From a virus, in IMG/VR virus record IMGVR_UViG_3300005841_000001, positions 1 to 64,000 of that record: a DNA stretch of 64,000 bases; one strand, written 5' to 3'. Positions 16,247 to 62,176 of this stretch are shown piece after piece. Positions within the stretch are counted from its first letter, which is position 1. The number at the start of each line of letters is the position of its first letter. The notes under the pieces are model-generated. The model searched no databases and was not told the origin of the DNA. It saw nothing but the letters and a program-made list of their open reading frames with translations. The translations under genes were made by a program, and so were the position numbers.

Positions 16247-18537
16247 GCTCCCTCATCTCGGACGGCTCGGAGACGGTCGGAACGCGACAACTGGACGTCA
16301 CGAACGGCGTCCACGATGAAGCCCCACTCCTCCGCCGTGAACTCCGGTTCGTCGATTTCGTACCAGGTGCCCCGCACCTGCTTGCCAGTGGCGCTCTTCA
16401 TCCGGATGCGGTCCGGCTTGACGTACAGGTACCGCATCGAAGACTGCGCGGCCTTGCCCGACGGGCCACCCGGGCGGGTGGCCACGTAGCCGAGAAACGG
16501 CTTGAGCGAGAACCAGATCGACGGCGTGCCGGTCGTTCCCCAGTTCTGGTGATCACGGAGGAACGGTTTGTGCATGTCGACCGCTTCGACTTCCAGCGGC
16601 GTCGGAGGGTGATCGAGCAGGTAGTCCAGCAGCCACCCGTGCATCGAGGTAGCCATGTCCGAGCCGGTCGAGTCGCGCAGCCAGTACGGGACGAGCCGGT
16701 CGATCAGCGCGGCCCATCGCTCCTTGTCGCCAACCGGAGCGGCCGGGATCAGGCAGTCGACCGTCAGGGCCGTGCGGAACCCCCGCGGGGTCGAGAAGTC
16801 ACCGCGCTTGTGCCACTCGGAAAACAGCGGCCGGCCGACGCGGTACTGCTCGGGCCGGTTGGCGTCCGGCCAGTCGTAGTCCACCGGGATTTTCAGCCCG
16901 ATGCGACCACGCGCCGCATCGCCCTGGTCGGCCCGCTCGAGCCGCCACACTTCGAAGCCCTCGGCGCGAAACGCCTCGGGCAGCAGCAAGTCAGAGAGCG
17001 CCTCCATGTGCGCCCGCAGACCATCGGACCGGGTGCCCCAAACCTCTTCGTCCGCCGTCGGATCAGGCACCGGCGGCAGGACCTTGGGGACCTCGGTCGC
17101 CGGCGGTTGCCGATCCTCATCGGCGGCCTGATGTTCGTTCTCCACCTGGAACGTCGCGGCGAGCAGCCGCTGCTCCGGAGACATGACATCGTCGGCGTGG
17201 TCCAGGATCGCGTCGACGTAGTCGGGCATCGCGTCAGGCTCAAGCCCCGGGCCGGGACCCGGGTCGTCGTCCTCCGGCGGTTCGGGGGGCAGGAAGTCGA
17301 CCGGGTTCGGCTCGGGCTCGACGTGCACGGTGGCGCCGAGCTTGCCCTTGGCGGCCGAGGCGAAAGACGCCTCGCGGTCCAGCTCGAACTCGGCGAGCTT
17401 GGTCTTGCGCTTGCTCTGTTGCGCGACGAATCCGATGGTGCGGATGATGTAGTCGACTCGTTGCCGAGGGTCGACCTTGTCTACTTTCTGTCCACACCGC
17501 AGCCGGCGGCACATCAGCGCCTCGACCTGGTGATCCACGCTGAACCCGTAGTCAGCCAGGATCCGCACCAGCGCCGCGTCGTAGCTGGACTGGTCGTTTG
17601 CCAGGTCCGCGCGGTTGCCCGCCCACAGCAAGGCCAGCGGGCCAGCCGAGCCGTCGATCTCCAGCACGACCGAGAGCCACTCGGGCGTGTAGTCGCGCGA
17701 GCGGTAGTCCGCGGAGTTGACCCGGGCCCAGACCCGGTTCAGGTCAAGGTCGCCGAACTCGGCCGTCTTCACTCCGACCGTGCCAGCCGCGTAGCTGTCG
17801 AGCACCTCGGGGTCAGCGAATCGCTCGATCAGGTCGTCGAGCTCGTAGCGTCGGGCGTTGTCAAGCTCGACGATCTCGGCGCGCCGCGGGTCGTCGGGAA
17901 CCTTCAGGTTGAGCGTTCCCGGCACGCGCAGCACGCGCGCGAGGTCGAACACCGAGTCGAGCTTCCACTGCCCGAGCCGCTCCGCGTGGTAGCGCAGCGT
18001 CGAGTTCCAGTCTTGCGAGATGCGGGCGAGCTTCTCCTGCTCGGCCTCGACATCCTCGTCCGGCTCGATGATGAATGGCTCGTGGAACAGCCACCACGCC
18101 TGAATGCCGTGGCCCGTACGGATGATGGCCGTAGGGACCAGGCCCGGCGCGTTGGCCAGTGCCACTGCCGCTTCGTAATCGGGGGGGTAGGGCTTGCTCG
18201 TGTGCGGTCCACCCGCGAAGTCGATGTCCGCCCACAACCCGGGGAGTGCAACGACCTCGTGTGCCTTGGCCCGCTTGAACCTTTCTTTCGCGGACCGGGT
18301 CATCCCCGGTCCAATGTAGATTCCTGTGGGCCCGCCCGGCGTGCCCTGAGCTTCGGCAAGATCGGTGATGGCGGAAACAATGGCGCCGAGGTCATCACCT
18401 CGGCGCCACCGTGTCTCTTTGCCGGGCAGCGACCAGGCAGCGGCTACGTACAGATCCGCCAGGTTTTCGTCGCCGGTGCCGTCCGGGCCTCCGAACAGTG
18501 CCGAGCAGAACCGCCGGATCTGCTCGGCGTCGATCAT
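16243..18537 (-). CDS. primase-polymerase (archaeo-eukaryotic primase superfamily)
   Basis: A 764-residue protein; ATG 18537 overlaps the upstream stop (ATGA). LWADIDFAGGPH (D104, D106) and RTGHGIQAWW (H143) are the D-x-D and s-x-H motifs of bifunctional prim-pol domains, and RVLRVPGTLNLK matches their conserved R-x-PGT-x-N-x-K segment. Residues 300-450 include a CRRLRCG pair and an acidic Pro-rich linker; the C-terminal 300 residues are unrecognised and lack a clear Walker A, so no helicase is fused. It likely primes phage DNA synthesis. Confidence 0.88.
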   Translation of the reverse strand: MIDAEQIRRFCSALFGGPDGTGDENLADLYVAAAWSLPGKETRWRRGDDLGAIVSAITDLAEAQGTPGGPTGIYIGPGMTRSAKERFKRAKAHEVVALPGLWADIDFAGGPHTSKPYPPDYEAAVALANAPGLVPTAIIRTGHGIQAWWLFHEPFIIEPDEDVEAEQEKLARISQDWNSTLRYHAERLGQWKLDSVFDLARVLRVPGTLNLKVPDDPRRAEIVELDNARRYELDDLIERFADPEVLDSYAAGTVGVKTAEFGDLDLNRVWARVNSADYRSRDYTPEWLSVVLEIDGSAGPLALLWAGNRADLANDQSSYDAALVRILADYGFSVDHQVEALMCRRLRCGQKVDKVDPRQRVDYIIRTIGFVAQQSKRKTKLAEFELDREASFASAAKGKLGATVHVEPEPNPVDFLPPEPPEDDDPGPGPGLEPDAMPDYVDAILDHADDVMSPEQRLLAATFQVENEHQAADEDRQPPATEVPKVLPPVPDPTADEEVWGTRSDGLRAHMEALSDLLLPEAFRAEGFEVWRLERADQGDAARGRIGLKIPVDYDWPDANRPEQYRVGRPLFSEWHKRGDFSTPRGFRTALTVDCLIPAAPVGDKERWAALIDRLVPYWLRDSTGSDMATSMHGWLLDYLLDHPPTPLEVEAVDMHKPFLRDHQNWGTTGTPSIWFSLKPFLGYVATRPGGPSGKAAQSSMRYLYVKPDRIRMKSATGKQVRGTWYEIDEPEFTAEEWGFIVDAVRDVQLSRSDRLRAVRDEGA

Positions 18538-21379: not shown

Positions 21380-21630
21380 CACACGGACACCTTGACCAGG
21401 AAGCGACGCCGCCACACATCGTGTGAGAGGACCTCGAGGTCGCCACCGCCGTAGCTGATCAGCCACTGACCGGGGACCAGGTAGAACCTCTGCCCGCCCA
21501 CGGTCACGTTGACCTGGCCGGACGGCCGGCGCTCGACGTCGCCGCCGAGGGTGGTCACGAAGACCGCGAACGCCTCGACGTTGTCGACCTGCTCGCCGGT
21601 GATGGTGTCGGCCATTTCGAGGACCTTCAC
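21379..21630 (-). CDS. small beta-rich hypothetical protein
   Basis: An 83-residue protein; GTG 21630 overlaps the stop of the secreted nuclease gene. The sequence alternates in beta-strand fashion (GQVNVTVGGQRFYLVPGQWLI) and carries no known motif. Coupled to the next gene by TGATG. Confidence 0.55.
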   Translation of the reverse strand: MKVLEMADTITGEQVDNVEAFAVFVTTLGGDVERRPSGQVNVTVGGQRFYLVPGQWLISYGGGDLEVLSHDVWRRRFLVKVSV

Positions 21631-22331
21631 GGGCACCCCCGCAGGGTGTCGGCCAGCGCGGTACGGGTGGCGGCCAGCGCGGGCAGCTCGTAGGCCTTGA
21701 GGATGGTCACGTACATCCGGGCGTACTCGCAGCGGGCGGGCGGCGCCGGCATCCAGCGGTCGGGGGTCTTGTCGCCCTTGACGTGCTGGTTGGTCTGGTC
21801 GTCGACGGCCAGCAGGTTGCGGGGGTCGTTGGCGAGCCGGATGCGGGGGCGCGCCTGCCAGGCGTAGGCGCCGGAGACCCAGGCGACCTTGAGCGGGACG
21901 ACGTGATCGACGTCGATCTGGCCGCGGCCGACGACGTGCTTGCCGGCGTAGGGCTCGGTCATGTCGATGGCGATGACGGTGCAGCCGTTGGACGTCTGCA
22001 CGGATCCGCCGGAGCGACGGGCGTCGCGGGCGAGGATGTCGTCTCGGGTGTCGCAGCCGTTGCCGTCGGTGTCGAGCCAGGGGGTGCCGAAGGCGTCCCG
22101 GTCGTAACGCGGCGGCGTGGCCGGGCGGCCGAGGGCCGGCGCGGCGCGGTCGAGAACGGTGATGTAGGGGATTTCCGCACGGGCGGCGGCGGCGGACAGC
22201 GTGCCGGCCGGCGGTTCGAGGGCGGTCGGGCCGGGTTCGTCGGCGTTGGCGCGCACGGCGAACCCGGCGATGACGGCCGCCGCGATCAAGACGCCGCCGA
22301 TGATCCACGACGGCTTGTCCTTGATGGGCAT
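21627..22331 (-). CDS. secreted or membrane-anchored HNH nuclease (DUF1524/GmrSD-C-like)
   Basis: A 234-residue protein. Residues 1-30 are a signal peptide or membrane anchor (basic start, then IIGGVLIAAAVIAGFAV). The nuclease core reads GQIDVDHVVPL (D142, H143), then NDPRNLLAV (N172), QTNQHVKGDKTPDRWMP: the ββα-metal HNH arrangement of the DUF1524 family found in actinobacterial secreted nucleases. It would act outside the membrane, perhaps on extracellular or incoming DNA. ATG start; promoter at 22365-22393. Confidence 0.85.
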   Translation of the reverse strand: MPIKDKPSWIIGGVLIAAAVIAGFAVRANADEPGPTALEPPAGTLSAAAARAEIPYITVLDRAAPALGRPATPPRYDRDAFGTPWLDTDGNGCDTRDDILARDARRSGGSVQTSNGCTVIAIDMTEPYAGKHVVGRGQIDVDHVVPLKVAWVSGAYAWQARPRIRLANDPRNLLAVDDQTNQHVKGDKTPDRWMPAPPARCEYARMYVTILKAYELPALAATRTALADTLRGCP

Positions 22332-35854: not shown

Positions 35855-35883
35855 AGACTAGCCGAGTTCGGTCGGCTTTTCAA
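35855..35883 (-). promoter_or_regulatory. promoter-operator cassette with leader
   Basis: Read leftward: TTGAAA, spacer AGCCGACCGAACTCGGC (17 nt), TAGTCT, then about 32 nt of leader to ATG 35822. The stop codon of the upstream HTH gene is the TAG that begins the -10 box (35858-35860). Confidence 0.85.
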
Positions 35884-36538
35884 GCGCCTGCATCGGTTCG
35901 GTCAGCGTCGCCACCCCGGACCGGACGGCCAGCTCCTCGCCCGGCTCGCGCGCGGTCAGGCCCTCCAGCAACGTGCTCAGTTCGGGCGAAGCCGACCAGA
36001 ACGTCAGCGGCAGCCGCCACCAGTAGTGCCACCGCTGCGGGCCGCCGGTGATCGGCGTCAGCCCCCGCATGCGCACCGCGCCGAGCGACTTCAGCGTGGC
36101 CGCCACGCTCGTCTCCAGCGTCGCCGCCGGGAAGCGCTGCCCCAGGTTCACCTCGGCCCACCGGGCGACCGCCGCCGGCTGGACGTGGGCGTGGATCCGG
36201 CCCGAGCGGGCGCGTGCCAGCACCGGCGTGCCCTCGGCCGCAGCCACGTCGTACTCGGCCAGCGGCGGCAGCGCCGCGAGGTAAGCGCGTAGTGCTTCAC
36301 CGACCTCGTGGACGCGCCGCTCCTCCATGCTCGCGTCCTTGATACCGGCGAGTAGGTCGACGAAGTCGCGGATGTCGTCGGCGTTGAACCACTCGGTGTG
36401 CGAGCCATCCCGGAACACCAGGCAGGGCAGCAGGCCGGCGTGGACGAACTCGCGGATCTTCTCCGGCTTCACTTTCGCCAGCAGCGCCGCGTCGGTGATC
36501 GACAGCGGGTAGCCGACGGGCCGGTTCTGCTTGGTCAT
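35858..36538 (-). CDS. HTH DNA-binding protein, first gene of the early block
   Basis: A 226-residue protein. Residues 10-62 (LSITDAALLAKVKPEKIREF, then FNADDIRDFVDLL) read as a MerR/excisionase-type winged helix; the rest is unrecognised. It is the promoter-proximal gene beside the 1-kb gene-free region and has its own, different promoter (36545-36574). It is therefore a candidate early regulator or replication initiator. Its coding sequence ends inside a palindromic cassette, so if it is the regulator, the site at its own 3' end would control the next gene. Confidence 0.7.
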   Translation of the reverse strand: MTKQNRPVGYPLSITDAALLAKVKPEKIREFVHAGLLPCLVFRDGSHTEWFNADDIRDFVDLLAGIKDASMEERRVHEVGEALRAYLAALPPLAEYDVAAAEGTPVLARARSGRIHAHVQPAAVARWAEVNLGQRFPAATLETSVAATLKSLGAVRMRGLTPITGGPQRWHYWWRLPLTFWSASPELSTLLEGLTAREPGEELAVRSGVATLTEPMQALEKPTELG

Positions 36539-36544
36539 GGTGCC

Positions 36545-36574
36545 ACTCTAGTAGCTGCTTGGACTTGCATGCAA
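36545..36574 (-). promoter_or_regulatory. probable leaderless promoter without the palindrome
   Basis: Read leftward: TTGCAT, 18-nt spacer, TAGAGT, 6 nt, ATG 36538. It shares the 6-nt spacing of the other leaderless promoters but lacks the CCGAG/CTCGG spacer, so it may escape the common regulator. Confidence 0.55.
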
Positions 36575-36811
36575 GGTTCATGTGCTTGGTCTAATTGATC
36601 TTGCCGAAAGATTTCCTGTCAGACCTCGACCATGCTGGAGGTTGCAAACGCACACCTGCGGATTGTCGCCCTGTGTGAGCGGTTTTCGTAACAGTTCAGT
36701 CTCGTGCATGCGGATGCTATCGTTATGTTTCCACGATGTGGGATGTCCAAGATCACCGTTAGTTAGCAACATGCCCAGGTCAGACGCTACGACAAACGGG
36801 TGATGGACATC

Positions 36812-36841
36812 GTGGACGTCCACCCCGGGACATGCATGTCC
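36812..36841. repeat. adjacent perfect palindromes of the GGAC/GTCC type
   Basis: GTGGACGTCCAC (36812-36823, 12 bp) is followed after 4 bp by GGACATGCATGTCC (36828-36841, 14 bp). Both are perfect. They are the densest part of the repeat field. Confidence 0.8.
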
Positions 36842-37283
36842 ACCCCGCCCGCCGGCGCCCGAGACGACCGCCACGATCCCCGGACACCAGGCCTGGCCTC
36901 GGCACACGCGGACGGCGGCCCGAGGACGCGCAGGCGGGCGCACGGGCTGGAAGCGGCCTGGTGGACATCCATGGGCAAAAGATGGTCGTCCACCTTGATC
37001 GACTTCTAACCCGCAGGTCGGGGCAGCCTTTTAAGGCATGTGATCTTGTATTGGACATTGGACGGGCAAAAAACGCGTTTTTGAGCTTGATGTGGTGTAC
37101 ATATGCTTACTGAGAATAAAGCTGCATTGCCTAGCATCCTGTAGCGAGTTGGTCGTCCACGTCCAGTGAGGCGTTTTCCCAGGTCAGAGTACGTATAGGG
37201 TGGACATCCTACAGATGGTAGGCGTCCACTACGGAGAGCTAGGTAGCTTGACCTGCAAGTTTACCTACCGGTTACCGTAGCGG

Positions 37284-37313
37284 TGGACGTCCATGTACAT
37301 GCATGGATGTCCA
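37284..37313. repeat. 30-bp inverted repeat
   Basis: The arms TGGACGTCCATG and CATGGATGTCCA (one mismatch) flank a 6-nt centre; each arm holds its own TGGAC/GTCCA pair. It is one of the strongest dyads in the gene-free region. Confidence 0.75.
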
Positions 37314-37586
37314 GACAGAAGAGGCGACCTGGGGTTTTACGTTCAGATACCGCCGGTGTCTGCACCTGCATACACCCCCCTGCTAGTAACCCTGCGTAGT
37401 CTCCTAACAGAATCGTTATCTCAGAGAGACAGGATCATGGTAAGAATAAAGGAACGTTACCTAACATAACTCTCCGTAGTTCGATCTTGAAACCGCCACT
37501 TTGTCACGGTGAAGTAACGGCACATACCGACCGGAGCGGCGCGGCGATCGAGCCAACTCGGCTAGCCACGCCGTACGCTGTGCCTC

Positions 37587-38240
37587 ATGGTCAAGACCCC
37601 GCCCGAGTTCCACGGCTCCGGCACCGGCGACGAGACGCGGGACTTCGACCTGCCGCACGACCTGCCCGACGACGAGTTCGGGCGCGCGCTGGTGGCGAAG
37701 TACCGCGGCCGGCTGCCCTACTACGGTTCGCCCGACGTGCGGCAGATTCAGTTCGCGAACGGCTTCGCCGAGCTCGCCGCGGTCGCGTTCGCGCGGGCCG
37801 AGTTCTACGGCGCGTTGCTGGCCTCCCAGTTCGCCGACGACGGCATGAGGGGCATCGTCGGGTACGAGATGGCCGCGACGATGGCCACGCGCGATTCGGA
37901 CCCGGAGATCTTCAAGAAGCTCGAGCGCGTCCGCGCGCTGGTGGAGCTCGAGGCGGCGGAGCGGGACCGGGCCGCGGCGATGACGGAGAAGGGCATCCGG
38001 CTCGGCATGGAGGCCTCGAAGGTCGACGCGCTGCGCTCCTACGGGCAGACGGTGGCCCAGTTCGCCCGGGCGATGGCGGAGGAGTTCGGGATCAACTGGA
38101 GCGACCCGGCGACCCGCCGCGGTGTGCAGCGGGCGCTACTGGCAGCGCGTCAACGACTGGGGTTCGAGCTGCGCACACCGGCCGAGGCCGGCCCGGCGCT
38201 GACGGCCGAAGAGAAGGTGCGCGTACGCGATGACGGCTGA
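37587..38240 (+). CDS. hypothetical protein, first rightward gene beside the gene-free region
   Basis: A 217-residue, largely helical protein with an ATG start. Residues 55-180 are a long series of helices with many Ala, Glu and Arg (EFYGALLASQFADD, ERVRALVELEAAERDRAAA). The length and helical character would suit a small terminase subunit, and the large subunit lies 4 kb downstream, but no motif proves this. A half-palindrome (AACTCGGCTAG) lies 22 nt upstream of the ATG, but without a clear -35 and with TACGCT as the nearest -10-like box. Confidence 0.6.
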   Translation: MVKTPPEFHGSGTGDETRDFDLPHDLPDDEFGRALVAKYRGRLPYYGSPDVRQIQFANGFAELAAVAFARAEFYGALLASQFADDGMRGIVGYEMAATMATRDSDPEIFKKLERVRALVELEAAERDRAAAMTEKGIRLGMEASKVDALRSYGQTVAQFARAMAEEFGINWSDPATRRGVQRALLAARQRLGFELRTPAEAGPALTAEEKVRVRDDG

Positions 38241-39273: not shown

Positions 39274-39294
39274 CGTGACCACCAGCGCACACGA

Positions 39295-39325
39295 AAGCCC
39301 CGCCCGGTGCGCCTGGGCGGGGCTT
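39295..39325. terminator. bidirectional terminator
   Basis: An 11-bp perfect stem (AAGCCCCGCCC with GGGCGGGGCTT), 9-nt loop, followed by CGTGT. It separates the rightward unit ending at 39273 from the convergent leftward gene ending at 39341. Confidence 0.85.
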
Positions 39326-39340
39326 CGTGTCTGGCCGGTC

Positions 39341-39646
39341 CTACTTGGTCATGACGCGGATCTTGCGCTTCGCGGGGTGAATGATCTTGCGCACGCCGTC
39401 GTTGTCGTAGCCGTGCAGCGAGCCGTCGGCCTGCGGCACGAAGCGGGTGCGGCAGAACAGTCGCACGCCGTCGCGCATGCGGCCCGCGGACTCCCACAGG
39501 ACGAGGATCTCGCCGACGGTGCCGGTGGCGGCCAGCTCGGCGGCGGTGAAGACGTCGTTGCGGGCGGTGTTGCTGCGCAGGGTGTGGCGGCCGGTGAAGG
39601 TGTCGGCGGCGATGAACGGGGCGGCGGGGGCGGTGGTCGTGGTCAT
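39341..39646 (-). CDS. hypothetical protein, leaderless
   Basis: A 101-residue protein. Thr/Ala-rich N-terminus, beta-rich middle (EILVLWESAGRMRDGVRLFC) and a basic end (HPAKRKIRVMTK). Single-gene unit driven by the cassette at 39653-39681, 6 nt from -10 to ATG. Function unknown. Confidence 0.65.
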   Translation of the reverse strand: MTTTTAPAAPFIAADTFTGRHTLRSNTARNDVFTAAELAATGTVGEILVLWESAGRMRDGVRLFCRTRFVPQADGSLHGYDNDGVRKIIHPAKRKIRVMTK

Positions 39647-39652
39647 AAGAAG

Positions 39653-39681
39653 AGACTAGCCGAGCGAACTCGGCTAGTCAA
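39653..39681 (-). promoter_or_regulatory. promoter-operator cassette, leaderless type
   Basis: Read leftward: TTGACT, spacer AGCCGAGTTCGCTCGGC, TAGTCT, 6 nt, ATG 39646. The palindrome CCGAG-N4-CTCGG is complete. The gene upstream ends only 7 bp before the -35 box. Confidence 0.9.
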
Positions 39682-39688
39682 GCCTCGG

Positions 39689-40360
39689 TCAGGCGCCGGC
39701 CTCGCGCGCCTGCGCCGCCTTGATCCGGTAGTCCAGTCGCTCGAGCCGGTTCGACAGCGCGGTGTAGCGCTCAAGGTCGCGGTCGAGCTGCTCGAAGCGT
39801 CGGCGGCCGGCGTTGCGCGCCGCGCGCGACCGCGCGTTCGGCGACAGGTTCACGATCGCCGGGTCGTCAGAGCCGGCGCCGGTGATCTTGTCCATCCGGG
39901 CCTGAACCTTGTCGCGTTCCTCGATCAGCGAGGCCGCCGAGCGGTACGTCTGGGGGCGGCGCTCACGCTTCGGGGTGGGCTTCTCCTCGGGCACGATCAC
40001 GAAGTCCTCGTCGCCGGCCCGGATGAACCATTCCAGCAGCGGCGGCAGAGTGCGGTCGCCGCCGTTGCGGTGGATCCAGGCGGCCTGCCGGGCGAGCAGA
40101 ACCGCGATGTAGGCGTCGCCGTCGATCGGCTCGGTCAGCGGGGCCGGCTCGGGCACCTCGACCGGCTCGATCTTCTCGGCGCCGTCCTCGACGAAGTCGC
40201 TCATGATCGAGGTGCGCACGACCAGGATCTTGCCCGGCTTGTCCCAGCCGCCGGCGCCCTCGATCACCTCGACCTCGTAGAAGCCCGCGTTGATCATCTT
40301 GATCACGTTGACGGTGGCGCGGAGGGTGGGGCCGCAAGTGACGGTGGCGGTGCCGATCAT
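39689..40360 (-). CDS. hypothetical protein with basic helical C-terminus
   Basis: A 223-residue protein with an ATG start and AAGGAG upstream. The first 60 residues are beta-rich, then a Pro/Glu-rich linker, and the last 90 residues are charged helices (LIEERDKVQARMDKI, RNAGRRRFEQLDRDLERY), possibly coiled coil. Single-gene unit under the cassette at 40391-40419. Confidence 0.65.
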   Translation of the reverse strand: MIGTATVTCGPTLRATVNVIKMINAGFYEVEVIEGAGGWDKPGKILVVRTSIMSDFVEDGAEKIEPVEVPEPAPLTEPIDGDAYIAVLLARQAAWIHRNGGDRTLPPLLEWFIRAGDEDFVIVPEEKPTPKRERRPQTYRSAASLIEERDKVQARMDKITGAGSDDPAIVNLSPNARSRAARNAGRRRFEQLDRDLERYTALSNRLERLDYRIKAAQAREAGA

Positions 40361-40390
40361 GGTGTGCTCCTTGTTCTCGGTGATGACACA

Positions 40391-40419
40391 AGACTAGCCG
40401 AGTTTGCTCGGCTAGTCAA
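40391..40419 (-). promoter_or_regulatory. promoter-operator cassette with leader
   Basis: Read leftward: TTGACT, spacer AGCCGAGCAAACTCGGC, TAGTCT, then 30 nt with AAGGAG before ATG 40360. Complete inverted repeat. Confidence 0.9.
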
Positions 40420-40426
40420 GCATCTT

Positions 40427-40675
40427 TCACCAGATCCGGTGCATCCGTCCCCGGGCCAGGCTCGCGGCCGTCGGCCCGTGCTTCCCGCAGTACGCACGCC
40501 CCGACCGGCCGCCCCAGAACGACCAGCCGAGCGGCTGCCCGATCGCGCGGATCAGGTCGCGCGGGTTGCGCACATCGTTCGGGTAGGTGGCCAGCGCGGC
40601 GGGCCGGATCTCGGCGCCGCACTCGCGCGCGCTGCACCGCGCGCCCATGACGACGAAGTTTTCGATCAAGCTCAT
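40427..40675 (-). CDS. small zinc-binding-like protein
   Basis: An 82-residue protein, ATG 40675 with GGAGGAG upstream (ATG 40648 is possible). CSARECGAEI and AYCGKHG provide a likely zinc site around a Trp/Gly-rich stretch (GWSFWGGRSG). It follows the 200-residue gene by 3 bp and ends just before the next cassette. Confidence 0.6.
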   Translation of the reverse strand: MSLIENFVVMGARCSARECGAEIRPAALATYPNDVRNPRDLIRAIGQPLGWSFWGGRSGRAYCGKHGPTAASLARGRMHRIW

Positions 40676-40678
40676 GAA

Positions 40679-41281
40679 TCAGGCTCCTCCGGCCGCCGCG
40701 CGGGCGTCCTGCTGGTCGGCGAACTCGATGCGCAAGCGCTTCAAGAGGGCCGGGTTGGTGGCACTCAGGTGCGCCGTGAAGGTGTCGAGCAGCCGCGCGA
40801 AGGTGCGCGCGTACCGCATCGTGAACTCGTCGAGGTCGAGCACCTCGTTCTGCCCGGGGTCGAGCACCAGGGCGGAGGCCTGCCGGCCGAGCGCCTCGAC
40901 GACGTCGGTGGCGTTCGGGAATCGGCGCGGCAGACCGAACTCGCGGAGCTTCGTGTAGGTGGCCGAGTCGAGGTCGTTGACCTCCGCCGGGTACAGCTCG
41001 GCGGTGCCGTCGTCGGTCAGCGCGACGTGCTTGTAGGCGAAGTGGATACCGACCGAGCGGTGCGACATGCCGGTCTTGATCAAGCCCTCGTTGAGCAGCT
41101 CGGCGAGGTAGGTCGCGCGCGGCTGGGGCACCGCCACGGCCTGTTCGCCGACCTTCTCGAAGAACTCGTAAGGGTCGGCGCCCGTGCCGACCTTGAGGAT
41201 CACGTCGGTGACGTCGACGCTGCGCAGCGCGAACTCGCGGCCGGCGGCGACCTGGCTGGGGGTGAGCGGCTTCGTGGTCAT
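40679..41281 (-). CDS. hypothetical protein, leaderless
   Basis: A 200-residue mixed alpha/beta protein without cysteine pairs or membrane segments. Its start lies 6 nt from the -10 box of the cassette at 41288-41316. It forms a two-gene unit with the small zinc-binding-like gene. Confidence 0.65.
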   Translation of the reverse strand: MTTKPLTPSQVAAGREFALRSVDVTDVILKVGTGADPYEFFEKVGEQAVAVPQPRATYLAELLNEGLIKTGMSHRSVGIHFAYKHVALTDDGTAELYPAEVNDLDSATYTKLREFGLPRRFPNATDVVEALGRQASALVLDPGQNEVLDLDEFTMRYARTFARLLDTFTAHLSATNPALLKRLRIEFADQQDARAAAGGA

Positions 41282-41287
41282 ACTGCG

Positions 41288-41316
41288 AGTCTAGCCGAGC
41301 TTGCTCGGAGAGTCAA
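41288..41316 (-). promoter_or_regulatory. promoter-operator cassette, leaderless type
   Basis: Read leftward: TTGACT, spacer CTCCGAGCAAGCTCGGC, TAGACT, 6 nt, ATG 41281. The stop codon of the upstream gene (41291-41293) is the TAG of the -10 box, so the last eight or nine codons of that gene are written by the cassette. Confidence 0.9.
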
Positions 41317-41683
41317 GGGTGAAGACGTACACCCGCCGGTCTTCGGGCAAGGCTTCTTCGCACGCGACCATGGCGCGGAACTTCGCCACGGTGATCGGGC
41401 GCGAGGTGGTCTTCTGCGGGGTGTCGCTCGGCGCGTCCTCGACGCTCATGACGTTCAGGCTGTCGCCCGGCTTGCCCGACACCATGCAGGTTTCCGCCTC
41501 GACGTGGTTGATCCGGCCGTTCATCTCCCAGTACACCAGGCCGCCCTCGGTGAACACGGGGTAGACGCCGGGCTCGACCAGCACCGTTTCGGCCGCGCCG
41601 AGCGTCGAGCCGGGCATCGGGAACACGCGGTTGCGCAGTACTTCGACGGTGCCAACCTGGACGCGGGTTTCGGTCTTGGGCAT
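41291..41683 (-). CDS. hypothetical protein
   Basis: A 130-residue protein; ATG 41683, with AAGGAG close upstream. Beta-rich first half (VYPVFTEGGLVYWEMNGRINH), basic-acidic mixed second half. Its final residues (DSPSKLG) come from the promoter cassette of the next unit. Function unknown. Confidence 0.65.
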   Translation of the reverse strand: MPKTETRVQVGTVEVLRNRVFPMPGSTLGAAETVLVEPGVYPVFTEGGLVYWEMNGRINHVEAETCMVSGKPGDSLNVMSVEDAPSDTPQKTTSRPITVAKFRAMVACEEALPEDRRVYVFTLDSPSKLG

Positions 41684-41686
41684 CGG

Positions 41687-42223
41687 TTACTCCTTGGTAG
41701 GTTGACGCTGCCAGAGCGGCCGGCGAGCTTGCTCGTCTCGCCACGCGGCGAGTTCTTCATGGCCTTTGACGGTCGGGACGATGTACATCTCTTCGGTCAC
41801 CACGAACCCGTTGCGCTGCAACCAGTTCGCGGCGTTCTGCGCAACCTCGCTGAACCGCGCGGTACCGTCGTCGCCGGAAATCCAGACGTCCTGTCCGGGG
41901 CCGGTTCCGGGGAACCACATCAGGATCTCCTGCTCGGCACACAGCAGCGTCTCGAGCAGCGGCGGCGTCAAGCGGGTGTCGATCACCAGCCCCGAGGCGA
42001 CCGCGCATCGGAACGCGATTTTCGTTTGCCGCGCGCGAGGACCATGCTCGACGCTCACGTAGTACTCGCCAGTGCGAAGGTCGCCGACGCACGGCCCGAG
42101 CAACGGCAGGCCGCCGTCTTCGGGCCGGTGGTGACAGAAGTGCGGTACGTGCGCCTTGTGGAAGCCGTAGTCCGCGCGCTCGGCGGGCGGCCCCCACGTG
42201 ATGCCGCGCGGCAAGGTGCGCAT
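41687..42223 (-). CDS. hypothetical protein
   Basis: A 178-residue protein, 3 bp downstream of the 74-residue gene's stop. HVPHFCHHRPEDGG near the start looks like a possible metal site; the rest is alpha/beta with many aromatics. Not assigned. Confidence 0.6.
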   Translation of the reverse strand: MRTLPRGITWGPPAERADYGFHKAHVPHFCHHRPEDGGLPLLGPCVGDLRTGEYYVSVEHGPRARQTKIAFRCAVASGLVIDTRLTPPLLETLLCAEQEILMWFPGTGPGQDVWISGDDGTARFSEVAQNAANWLQRNGFVVTEEMYIVPTVKGHEELAAWRDEQARRPLWQRQPTKE

Positions 42224-42226
42224 CGG

Positions 42227-42451
42227 CTACAGCTTCGCGATCTCGACGCTGCGGAACGAGCCGGCGACGGCGAAGTAGGTGACGTTCGAGTTGACCCGGT
42301 CGGTGGGGTCGAACTCGAGGCTCCCGCCTTCCCGGACCGCCCTTTCGGCGCGTGCGCGGGCGTAGTTGTGCAGATCGCCCCGGATCTTGATCTTGTCCTT
42401 CTGTCCGTTGTGGAATGTGACCGTGACCTCGATGATGTTGGTAGGAGTCAT
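42227..42451 (-). CDS. small beta-rich protein, leaderless
   Basis: A 74-residue protein with a strand-rich pattern (IIEVTVTFHNGQKDKIKI). Its ATG is 6 nt from the -10 box at 42458. First gene of a three-gene unit. The promoter region is shared with the start of the divergent terminase gene. Confidence 0.65.
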   Translation of the reverse strand: MTPTNIIEVTVTFHNGQKDKIKIRGDLHNYARARAERAVREGGSLEFDPTDRVNSNVTYFAVAGSFRSVEIAKL

Positions 42452-42457
42452 TCCACA

Positions 42458-42486
42458 AGACTAGCCGACTTAACTCGGGGAGGCAA
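42458..42486 (-). promoter_or_regulatory. promoter-operator cassette, leaderless type, next to terminase start
   Basis: Read leftward: TTGCCT, spacer CCCCGAGTTAAGTCGGC, TAGTCT, 6 nt, ATG 42451. Its -35 end lies only 7 bp from the rightward terminase ATG and overlaps the terminase ribosome-binding site (GGGGAGG on the other strand), so a bound regulator could affect both. Confidence 0.85.
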
Positions 42487-42492
42487 GCTCCG

Positions 42493-43968
42493 ATGACGGA
42501 CTCGCTCACCCGAGACATCGAACGCTGGTGGGGCGCCGAATCCGGCACCGACCTCACCCGCGTCGACTTCGACGCCATCGGCTACGAAGTCGCCGGCATC
42601 CGGGTCTCGAATGCCGTCGCCGACCTCGACCCCCAGCTCTACGAAGCTCTCGCACTGCTCGAGCCGCCGGCCCCCCACCCCTGGCGGCGGACCGCGCTCC
42701 CGCACCAGGTCGAGGCCGCCGAGGCGACCGAGCCCTACGTCCTGATGTGCGCCGGCCGCGGCGCCGGCAAGACCTACACCGCGTCGCACACCCTCACCGA
42801 ATGGATCGAGGAAGAGCCCGGCGACTACGCGATCATCGCGCCCACGTTCGGTGACGCCGTCAAGATCTGTGCCGAGGGCCCATCCGGGTTTCTCAAGGCC
42901 GCCGGCGACCGCGTCGAATCGTTCAACAAGAACGAGTTCATCGTCTACATGACGAACGGTTCACGTGTCGTGCTCGCCTCCGCCGACGCCCCTGACCGCG
43001 TCCGCGGCTGGAACCTCACCGGCTTCTGGGCCGACGAACTCGCGTCCTGGAAAAAGGCTGAGATCTGGGACGAGGGCCTCGAGTTTGCGACCCGCATCGG
43101 GCGCACCCGCCGCATCATCACCACGACCCCGAAGCGCGGCTCGAAAGTCCTCAAAGACCTGCTCAAGCGCGTCGATGCTGAAGACCCTGACGTCAAGCTG
43201 GTCCGCGCGTCCACCTCCGCCAACGCCGCCAACCTGTCCGAGACGTTCCTGCGCACGATCCAGCAGCGCTACGCCGGCACCACCCTCGGCCGGCAGGAGC
43301 TCGACGGCATCCTGCTCGGCGACGTCGAGGGCGCCCTGGTCACCGGCGCCCAGATCGAGCGGGCTCGCGTCCGGCCCGCCGAGGTTCCGGAGCTGTGGCG
43401 GCTGGTCGTCGGCGTAGACCCCGCGGTCACGAACACCTCCGAGAGCGACGAGACCGGCATCATCGTCGCCGGCATCGGGCCGGCACCCGAGGGCTGGGAA
43501 CCGCCCGTCGGCCAGCTCGTGCTCGCCGGCGCGCCGCACATCTACCTGCTCGAGGACGTGTCCGGCCGGCGGTCGGTCAACGCGTGGGCTAAGCAAGCGC
43601 TCATCACCGCTGACGAGTGGGCCGCGGACGCGATCGTCGCGGAAAAGAACCAGGGCTACGACCTGGTCGAATCGAACATCCGGCTCAACGCGCTGGTCGA
43701 CCGGCTCGCCGTGCCGCACGTGCAGCTCGTGCACGCGGCCAAGGGCAAGTTCACCCGGGCCGAGCCGGTCGGCGCGCTGTTCGAGCAGGGCCGGTTGCAC
43801 GTCGTCAACACGATGCCCAAGCTCGAGGACCAGTGGACGGAGTGGATCCCGGGCGACGGCACCGTGTCCCCCGACCGGCTCGACGCCTCGGTGTGGGCGG
43901 TCGTCGGTTTGATGCCGGAGCTCGGGATTGGTGGCTCGGGTGCGGTCAAGATCCTGTCGGCCGGCTGA
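42493..43968 (+). CDS. terminase large subunit
   Basis: A 491-residue DNA-packaging ATPase/nuclease. Walker A is AGRGAGKT (about residues 87-94), Walker B LTGFWADE (about 176-182), and the coupling motif follows at ITTTPKRGS. The C-terminal RNase H-like nuclease has VVGVDPAVTN (D309), IVAEKNQGYD and RLDASVWAVVG. GGGGAGG lies about 9 nt upstream of the ATG. No portal, protease or capsid gene follows; a terminator comes directly after it, which is unusual. Confidence 0.93.
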   Translation: MTDSLTRDIERWWGAESGTDLTRVDFDAIGYEVAGIRVSNAVADLDPQLYEALALLEPPAPHPWRRTALPHQVEAAEATEPYVLMCAGRGAGKTYTASHTLTEWIEEEPGDYAIIAPTFGDAVKICAEGPSGFLKAAGDRVESFNKNEFIVYMTNGSRVVLASADAPDRVRGWNLTGFWADELASWKKAEIWDEGLEFATRIGRTRRIITTTPKRGSKVLKDLLKRVDAEDPDVKLVRASTSANAANLSETFLRTIQQRYAGTTLGRQELDGILLGDVEGALVTGAQIERARVRPAEVPELWRLVVGVDPAVTNTSESDETGIIVAGIGPAPEGWEPPVGQLVLAGAPHIYLLEDVSGRRSVNAWAKQALITADEWAADAIVAEKNQGYDLVESNIRLNALVDRLAVPHVQLVHAAKGKFTRAEPVGALFEQGRLHVVNTMPKLEDQWTEWIPGDGTVSPDRLDASVWAVVGLMPELGIGGSGAVKILSAG

Positions 43969-48459: not shown

Positions 48460-48488
48460 AGTCTAGCCGAGCTAACTCGGAGCGTCAA
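48460..48488 (-). promoter_or_regulatory. promoter-operator cassette, leaderless type
   Basis: Read leftward: TTGACG, spacer CTCCGAGTTAGCTCGGC, TAGACT, 6 nt, ATG 48453. The upstream MazG-like gene stops with a TAG abutting the -35 box. Confidence 0.9.
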
Positions 48489-53652: not shown

Positions 53653-54312
53653 GTGGAGAGCAGGAACACCCGCGCTCAGTGGGCCGACGACGTTCCCGAC
53701 CTGTACGGGGAGAGCCTCGCCAAGGCCGGCGATTACCTCACCATCGCGCAGGTCAGCAACCTGACGTCGCTGTCGCCGAACACGCTCAGGGACGCACTCA
53801 GCCGGCCCCCGGTGACGCGCAAGGACAACCCGATGTTCGCGCTGTCGCGCCCGGCCGCCCGCATCGCCAACCAGCCGCTCTACTCCCCCGAGCAGGTCGA
53901 GCAGGCGAAGAAGATCCAGAAGGACACCGGCCACCGCCACCTCGGCGGCGGCACCGAGGCTCTCGAGGTCGTCTCGCCCCAGGAAGCCGAACGGGCGGGG
54001 CTCGTCTCGATCGTCGAGTTCAAGGACTTCGCCGGCGTGCACGAGCAGACCGTGCGCCGGTGGGCCCGTGAGCAGGAGTCGTTCCCGCAGCCGGTCGCCC
54101 TGCGTTCGCGCTCGGGCGGCGAGCAGGACGGTGCCCGGGTGCACCCCGGCGTGCCGATCGTGATGTACGAGTTCGACGCCGCGAAGAAGTGGCTGCGCAA
54201 CTACATCGAGACCGGCACCGGCAAGCGCGTCGAGCGGATCGCGGAACACATGCGCGCCGCGCACGACTGGAAGATCCGGGCCGGTTCCCGAGCGGAAGCG
54301 ATCAGCGCGTAA
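53653..54312 (+). CDS. protein with two helix-turn-helix segments, candidate regulator
   Basis: A 219-residue protein with GTG start and an excellent ribosome-binding site (AAAGGAGG). HTH-like segments are LTIAQVSNLTSLSPNTLRDAL (residues 29-49) and SIVEFKDFAGVHEQTVRRW (119-137), the second followed by a wing-like SFPQPVALRSR, as in MerR-type or excisionase folds. The C-terminus is a basic helix. Its own promoter carries the palindrome, and it is a single-gene unit with a terminator, as expected for an autoregulated repressor or activator. Confidence 0.7.
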   Translation: MESRNTRAQWADDVPDLYGESLAKAGDYLTIAQVSNLTSLSPNTLRDALSRPPVTRKDNPMFALSRPAARIANQPLYSPEQVEQAKKIQKDTGHRHLGGGTEALEVVSPQEAERAGLVSIVEFKDFAGVHEQTVRRWAREQESFPQPVALRSRSGGEQDGARVHPGVPIVMYEFDAAKKWLRNYIETGTGKRVERIAEHMRAAHDWKIRAGSRAEAISA

Positions 54313-59216: not shown

Positions 59217-59245
59217 TAGACAAGCCGAGTTAACTCGGCTAGACT
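59217..59245 (+). promoter_or_regulatory. promoter-operator cassette, leaderless type, perfect palindrome
   Basis: TAGACA, spacer AGCCGAGTTAACTCGGC, TAGACT, 6 nt, ATG 59252. AGCCGAGTTAACTCGGCT is a perfect 18-bp palindrome, the best operator in the window. Confidence 0.92.
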
Positions 59246-61929: not shown

Positions 61930-62151
61930 GTGAACCTGCGCAAGTGGATCAAGGAATTCCGCGAGGACTGGGCCGCCGCCGGTGAGGCCCTCGACCGGGC
62001 GGAGCGCGCCCGTGCGCGGCGTCGCGCGGCCGCGCCCCGGCCGCCCCAGGACGCCACCGCGGCCGCCGCTGGGGGTCTCGCCGCGGCCGCCGGGGCGCAG
62101 GCTGCGCAGGCCGCCGCTTGCCCGCCGGACGCGGGTTGCACTGGGGCTTGA
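61930..62151 (+). CDS. small Ala/Arg-rich protein
   Basis: A 73-residue protein with GTG start and GAGGAGG upstream. A basic amphipathic helix (NLRKWIKEFREDWAAAGEAL, RAERARARRR) is followed by an Ala-rich low-complexity tail with two cysteines. Its TGA stop is the TGA within the next cassette's TTGACG. Confidence 0.55.
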   Translation: MNLRKWIKEFREDWAAAGEALDRAERARARRRAAAPRPPQDATAAAAGGLAAAAGAQAAQAAACPPDAGCTGA

Positions 62152-62176
62152 CGCTCCGAGCTAACTCGGCTAGACT
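62148..62176 (+). promoter_or_regulatory. promoter-operator cassette with leader
   Basis: TTGACG, spacer CTCCGAGCTAACTCGGC, TAGACT, leader with GGGAGG before GTG 62206. Identical in all 29 positions to the cassette at 62556-62584. Confidence 0.92.

Follow-up and report, generated by a model that had tools for sequence, protein, structure and literature searches.

Analysis of the genome of an unclassified, high-GC phage revealed a gene-free field (36539–37586) that has the anatomy of an iteron-type replication origin, because a one-locus cluster of sites of the kind bound by dimeric proteins lies beside the most easily melted DNA of the genome and at the head of a replication operon. We put the probability that this field is the phage's replication origin at about 0.5, and of the readings that were weighed the origin was the best supported. 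To our knowledge, few lytic replication origins of large actinobacteriophages have been mapped; here a defined 1-kb segment, a defined site and one candidate binding protein make the question of the origin directly testable. The genome has no obvious initiator. If the field is an origin, it would also offer a new replicon for high-GC actinomycetes.

The window analysed, a stretch of 64,000 nt, corresponds to bases 1–64000 of a 101,657-bp virus record of ~68% GC. Bases 1–120 and 101538–101657 of the record were identical (a 120-bp repeat, at both ends). This makes a complete phage genome probable, one that is circular or circularly permuted in the assembly. The record encoded a terminase, a portal, a capsid protein and a head maturation protease, as well as a minus-strand replication and recombination block with UvrD-like and SNF2-like helicases, a primase/polymerase-like protein, a DnaQ-like exonuclease and a PD-(D/E)XK nuclease. 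The terminase showed 47% identity to the best of the matches listed in IMG/VR and about 35–38% identity to named phages. The GC content and the terminase matches to Gordonia, Streptomyces and Microbacterium phages point to an actinomycete as the host. The terminase relatives and the Actinomycetia phage DSL-LC01 were tried as synteny partners and discarded as having too little in common with this phage. Additionally, a GmrSD_C domain (an HNH-type restriction endonuclease C-terminal domain) was found inside the replication block (21627–22331, minus strand, E 9e-9), and a single reading frame of 2,957 aa (record positions 74670–83543, plus strand) lies 3′ of the maturation protease gene; in DSL-LC01, a comparable giant gene (about 3,290 aa) lies close to the portal gene. 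The 1,073-aa open reading frame at 39275–42496 (plus strand) was rejected as an antisense artefact over minus-strand genes, as it had no family match and a coding score below those of the opposite genes.

A codon-usage gene caller found 0 genes in 36539–37586, in agreement with the initial annotation, which had described a gene-free and relatively AT-rich kilobase between divergent operons, and by this gene calling the field was the sole low-GC gap longer than 250 bp. Its AT-richness was likewise borne out, with 55.7% GC in the field against 68.2% in the 64-kb window. Across the whole 101.5-kb genome the field was the lowest-GC kilobase (0.554; mean 0.681, SD 0.025), and both the lowest-GC 500 bp (49%) and the lowest-GC 1,048 bp lie in it. 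By computed nearest-neighbour stability, the 100-bp stretches that rank lowest and second lowest in the genome both lie here, 5.3 and 4.6 SD from the genome mean, and of the seven lowest-ranking stretches five were in the field or at its edge. An easily unwound AT-rich stretch, as judged by this computed stability, thus lies beside the repeated sites, as at iteron origins. A divergent regulatory region would likewise be expected to be AT-rich and rich in sites. The field and its compositional features were:

36539–37586, no strand: gene-free AT-rich field between divergent operons
36845–36955 (about 110 bp), no strand: GC-rich island, about 80% GC, within the otherwise AT-rich field
37028–37127, no strand: 100-bp stretch ranking second in the genome for low stability; two TGGAC sites lie in it in tandem (37052 and 37059); candidate unwinding element
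37392–37491, no strand: least stable 100-bp stretch of the genome, containing no TGGAC site; candidate unwinding element

About 17–18 TGGAC/GTCCA motifs had been reported for the field, and 17 were counted (8 + 9), compared with 2.7 ± 1.6 expected from order-1 Markov sequences of the field's own composition and a mean of 2.7 (maximum 10) in equal-size windows elsewhere in the 64-kb window. The motif was not equally dense in coding regions; the remaining ~100 kb held 260 copies which, bar 12, had no dyad extension. The five bases TGGAC make up one half of a 10-bp dyad, TGGACRTCCA, and the exact decamer occurred at four places in the whole record, all of them in the field. When up to two mismatches to TGGACGTCCA were allowed, the field contained 13 sites, where the rest of the genome would predict 1.0. 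Extension of TGGAC into the dyad, scored when 4 or more of 5 bases agreed, was seen for 11 of the 17 copies in the field and for 12 of the 260 elsewhere (odds ratio 38, P 9e-10). The dyad enrichment of the field ranked first among 1,024 ten-base palindromes tested over 385 genome tiles, with a log10P of 10.1 compared to 6.3 for the next unrelated tile. Six-mer over-representation alone did not single out the field. Outside it, weight-matrix matches of the dyad were nearly all in coding sequence. On the palindrome test and the dyad-extension control, the repeats are dyads resembling protein-bound sites and not a by-product of codon usage. The dyad-like sites (about 15, over about 750 bp of the field) form a real, non-random array that is confined to a single locus, and in this confinement of repeated sites the field agrees with iteron origins. 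A dispersed operator or stoperator system is unlikely because the exact dyad is found in this field only and is not spread over promoters and gaps. A search of the literature for the motif letters returned, among the matches listed, only primers and unrelated sequences.

Two perfect palindromes that had been noted, GTGGACGTCCAC at 36812–36823 and GGACATGCATGTCC at 36828–36841, were present; a 30-bp dyad described at 37284–37313 was dyad-like, although it proved to be a near-dyad only, in which 12 of the 15 pairs are symmetric. Eight of the dyads are arranged two by two as inverted pairs, giving four units (U1–U4) of 28–31 bp with the layout TGGAC..GTCCA. The 28–31 bp spacing is given as a description and not as proof, since its P of 0.0005 for the chosen bin becomes 0.16 if the choice of bin is allowed for. 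The sites were:

36560–36569, plus strand: TGGAC site TGGACTTGCA, part of the palindrome CTTGCATGCAAG
36740–36749, minus strand: single dyad site TGGACATCCC
36804–36808, plus strand: TGGAC half-site TGGACATCGT, adjoining unit U1
36813–36842, no strand: paired-dyad unit U1, TGGACGTCCACCCCGGGACATGCATGTCCA
36962–36992, no strand: paired-dyad unit U2, TGGACATCCATGGGCAAAAGATGGTCGTCCA
37150–37165, no strand: overlapping site pair TGGTCGTCCACGTCCA
37201–37228, no strand: paired-dyad unit U3, TGGACATCCTACAGATGGTAGGCGTCCA
37284–37313, no strand: paired-dyad unit U4, TGGACGTCCATGTACATGCATGGATGTCCA

From left to right, the promoter site at 36560 is followed by the site at 36740, the half-site with U1, the GC-rich island, U2, the melting stretch at 37028–37127, the overlapping pair at 37150–37165, U3, U4, the melting stretch at 37392–37491 and the start of the right gene. 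As U1–U4 are able to form hairpins, the field could instead be a structured noncoding RNA or an array of DNA hairpins, for example an RNA-primed origin as in some mycobacteriophage prophages. A 651-nt stretch folded as single-stranded DNA above its shuffles (z −5.8 for the minus strand and −2.7 for the plus strand; 20 shuffles each) and two 120-nt windows gave RNA z values of about −5 and −3.3, but background windows of the genome reach z −6.8. Arms of the same unit were no more alike than arms taken from different units (2.75 vs 3.0), so palindromic binding sites alone explain the folding and selection for hairpins is unneeded. Neither tRNA nor Rfam families were found when sought in the field. 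Known RNA-type prophage origins also adjoin parABS (PMC7157519), whereas ParA and ParB were not found in the record, and we regard an RNA or hairpin array as very unlikely.

The genes and predicted promoters that flank the field were:

35858–36538, minus strand: 226-aa protein with a weak N-terminal MerR/HTH_17-like domain; candidate site-binding protein or initiator
36539–36574, minus strand: putative leaderless promoter of the 35858–36538 gene by sequence match, TTGCAT – 18 bp – TAGAGT – 6 nt – ATG
37556–37567, plus strand: ACTCGGCTAGCC, a degenerate version of the promoter element dispersed through the phage, lying upstream of the rightward gene
37587–38240, plus strand: 217-aa protein, phrog_3678 (E 4e-6), function unknown

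The initial annotation had the field adjoining an HTH gene that heads the replication block. The adjacency stands, but the HTH label corresponds to a sub-threshold Pfam match only; when a recognised initiator was sought, the 35858–36538 product matched HTH_17 with E 0.016 and 15.9 bits, against a 27-bit cut-off, and Pfam and NCBIfam scans gave no match to a RepA_N domain. Structural models of the product had low confidence, with a mean pLDDT of 40 over its full length and 60 over the first 95 residues, and a fold search retrieved several MerR-family proteins, none of them significant. Relatives of the two flanking proteins were found neither in phages nor in viral contigs, and those of the left protein were also absent from GTDB genomes. 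A 15.7-bit match of a flanking protein to Gordonia phage Phendrix was dismissed, as it spans stop codons over small annotated genes. Elsewhere in the window, a 219-aa protein with two MerR/HTH_17-like domains (53653–54312, plus strand) is an alternative candidate for the binder of the dyads or for a regulator of the repeated promoters.

The GTCCA site at 36560–36564 lies within the spacer of the predicted promoter of the 35858–36538 gene. This would suit a local transcription switch, in which cooperative binding of a phage regulator to the dyads would control both divergent operons, with no role in the start of replication; the placement of the field between those operons, the degenerate promoter element at its right edge and the fit of the dyads to a dimeric regulator are all consistent with it. 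However, ~15 sites over 750 bp, mostly hundreds of bases from either start codon, exceed what two promoters need, a sigma-70 consensus scan found no promoter inside the field, and the genome's other promoters, ~25 repeated ones among them, lack the dyad sites. A switch alone is therefore a possible but rather unlikely explanation.

These ~25 dispersed, near-identical promoters lie between 12687 and 62583 of the window, for example at 62148–62176 and 59217–59245 on the plus strand and 48460–48488 on the minus strand, and are restricted to the non-structural part of the phage. Their form is TTGACK – exactly 17 bp ending (CCGAGYTA)ACTCGGC – TAGWCT – 6 nt – AT(G/C). In 10 copies the first start codon is 5–6 nt after the −10 (leaderless), and the spacer contains a CCGAG/CTCGG dyad; this layout and dyad suggest that the promoters are under coordinated control. 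Comparable short repeats, dispersed genome-wide at many genes, are the stoperators of cluster A and the SAS/ESAS of cluster K mycobacteriophages, the ESAS being imperfect inverted repeats with short spacers (PMC3203893). The field resembles these systems in having short repeated sites in the non-structural region of a phage and differs in that the TGGACRTCCA dyad is confined to one field. It is the ~25 repeated promoters, which recall the cluster K SAS/ESAS (PMC3203893), and not TGGACRTCCA, that fill a dispersed-operator-like role in this phage.

If the field is an origin, we infer that a phage-encoded dimeric DNA-binding protein would bind the TGGACRTCCA dyads, many of them set as four inverted pairs, and that this protein may be the product of the adjacent leftward gene, 35858–36538. 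Once bound, it would open one of the two AT-rich stretches, 37028–37127 or 37392–37491, and the phage replication proteins would then be loaded at the field, where replication would start. Initiators of iteron replicons limit their own synthesis, and the site in the predicted promoter of the 35858–36538 gene could let the same protein do so here. The earlier proposal of an origin is in keeping with the site cluster, the two easily melted stretches and the leftward replication and recombination genes, but the extremes of the whole-genome cumulative GC skew lie elsewhere, at 5.1 kb and 31.3 kb. The skew, which had been put forward as a check, did not pick the field out; what lies next to it is no more than a local minimum (36,345), and a coding-strand switch could be the cause of this minimum. 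Actinobacterial DnaA boxes (TTGTCCACA, up to one mismatch) numbered 0 in the field. A DnaA-dependent, actinobacterial oriC-like origin was accordingly rejected; the GTCCAC core resembles TTGTCCACA, but the field consensus is RYGTCCACC. Scans of viral contigs and GTDB genomes with the paired-dyad DNA pattern returned single palindromes or scattered near-matches and no comparable array. A 105.9-kb viral contig of 69% GC was looked at more closely and lacked both the array and protein similarity.

A cluster of repeated sites at a single locus is also centromere-like, and a parS-like site had been suggested for a plasmid-like prophage given that no integrase was seen. The tyrosine and serine recombinase families indeed had no match in the whole record, which additionally encoded an FtsK/SpoIIIE-like protein (record positions 64330–66357, minus strand, phrog_1358, E 1e-28) that might act on a DNA-translocation site. 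The parS suggestion loses support because searches of the whole record with ParB_N (PF02195) and the ParA-type AAA_31 (PF13614) gave no match. As a rule, FtsK-type sites have an orientation and are not palindromes, unlike the palindromic sites of the field. A centromere-like or DNA-translocation role is thus highly doubtful.

The putative origin was compared with known systems. The phage lambda ori has several dyad-symmetric O-protein iterons about 20 bp apart beside an AT-rich stretch, inside gene O. The field shares the several dyad-symmetric sites near an AT-rich stretch, but it is intergenic and longer (about 750 bp of sites), with its sites in spread clusters. Of the experimentally mapped origins considered, the nearest parallel is that of the PLE satellite of Vibrio cholerae. 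Its noncoding region contains three semi-palindromic iterons of ~30 bp to which RepA binds, and the class of repeat that is bound has 13-bp inverted sub-repeats (PMC7145576, PMC8263062). The field is likewise noncoding, with ~30-bp semi-palindromic repeats that have inverted sub-repeats, and PLE carries its own initiator gene, as this phage would if the neighbouring gene encodes the initiator. It differs in having four paired units plus single sites of a different sequence instead of three iterons. PLE RepA is a RepA_N protein, as in the RepA_N-type replicons (PLE, pTZ2162 and pSK41), whereas the 35858–36538 product gave no such match, and the resemblance to PLE is one of layout only. Replication from the PLE origin has been demonstrated (PMC7145576, PMC8263062), whereas the field is a putative origin.

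The origins of extrachromosomal mycobacteriophage prophages, of RepA or RNA type, adjoin parABS and were not found to have repeated sites; a noncoding segment or an HTH protein supports autonomous replication (PMC7157519). These also come from actinobacterial phages, the host class suggested for this phage. The field, which is dominated by repeated sites in a record where ParA and ParB were not found, does not match them, because those origins adjoin parABS. It is conceivable, though unlikely, that the field is the origin of an undescribed replicon type in an orphan 101-kb actinophage, combining paired TGGACRTCCA dyads with a new MerR/excisionase-like initiator (35858–36538) whose relatives were undetected in the phage, viral-contig and genome collections searched. 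Phage DSL-LC01 has a 780-bp divergent gene-free gap (17499–18278) with three 21-bp palindromes of the AAGTTACCGAGCGGTTACTTA type. These differ in sequence from TGGACRTCCA and the analogy is a loose one only; in this distantly related phage the gap may have a similar role as an origin or control region.
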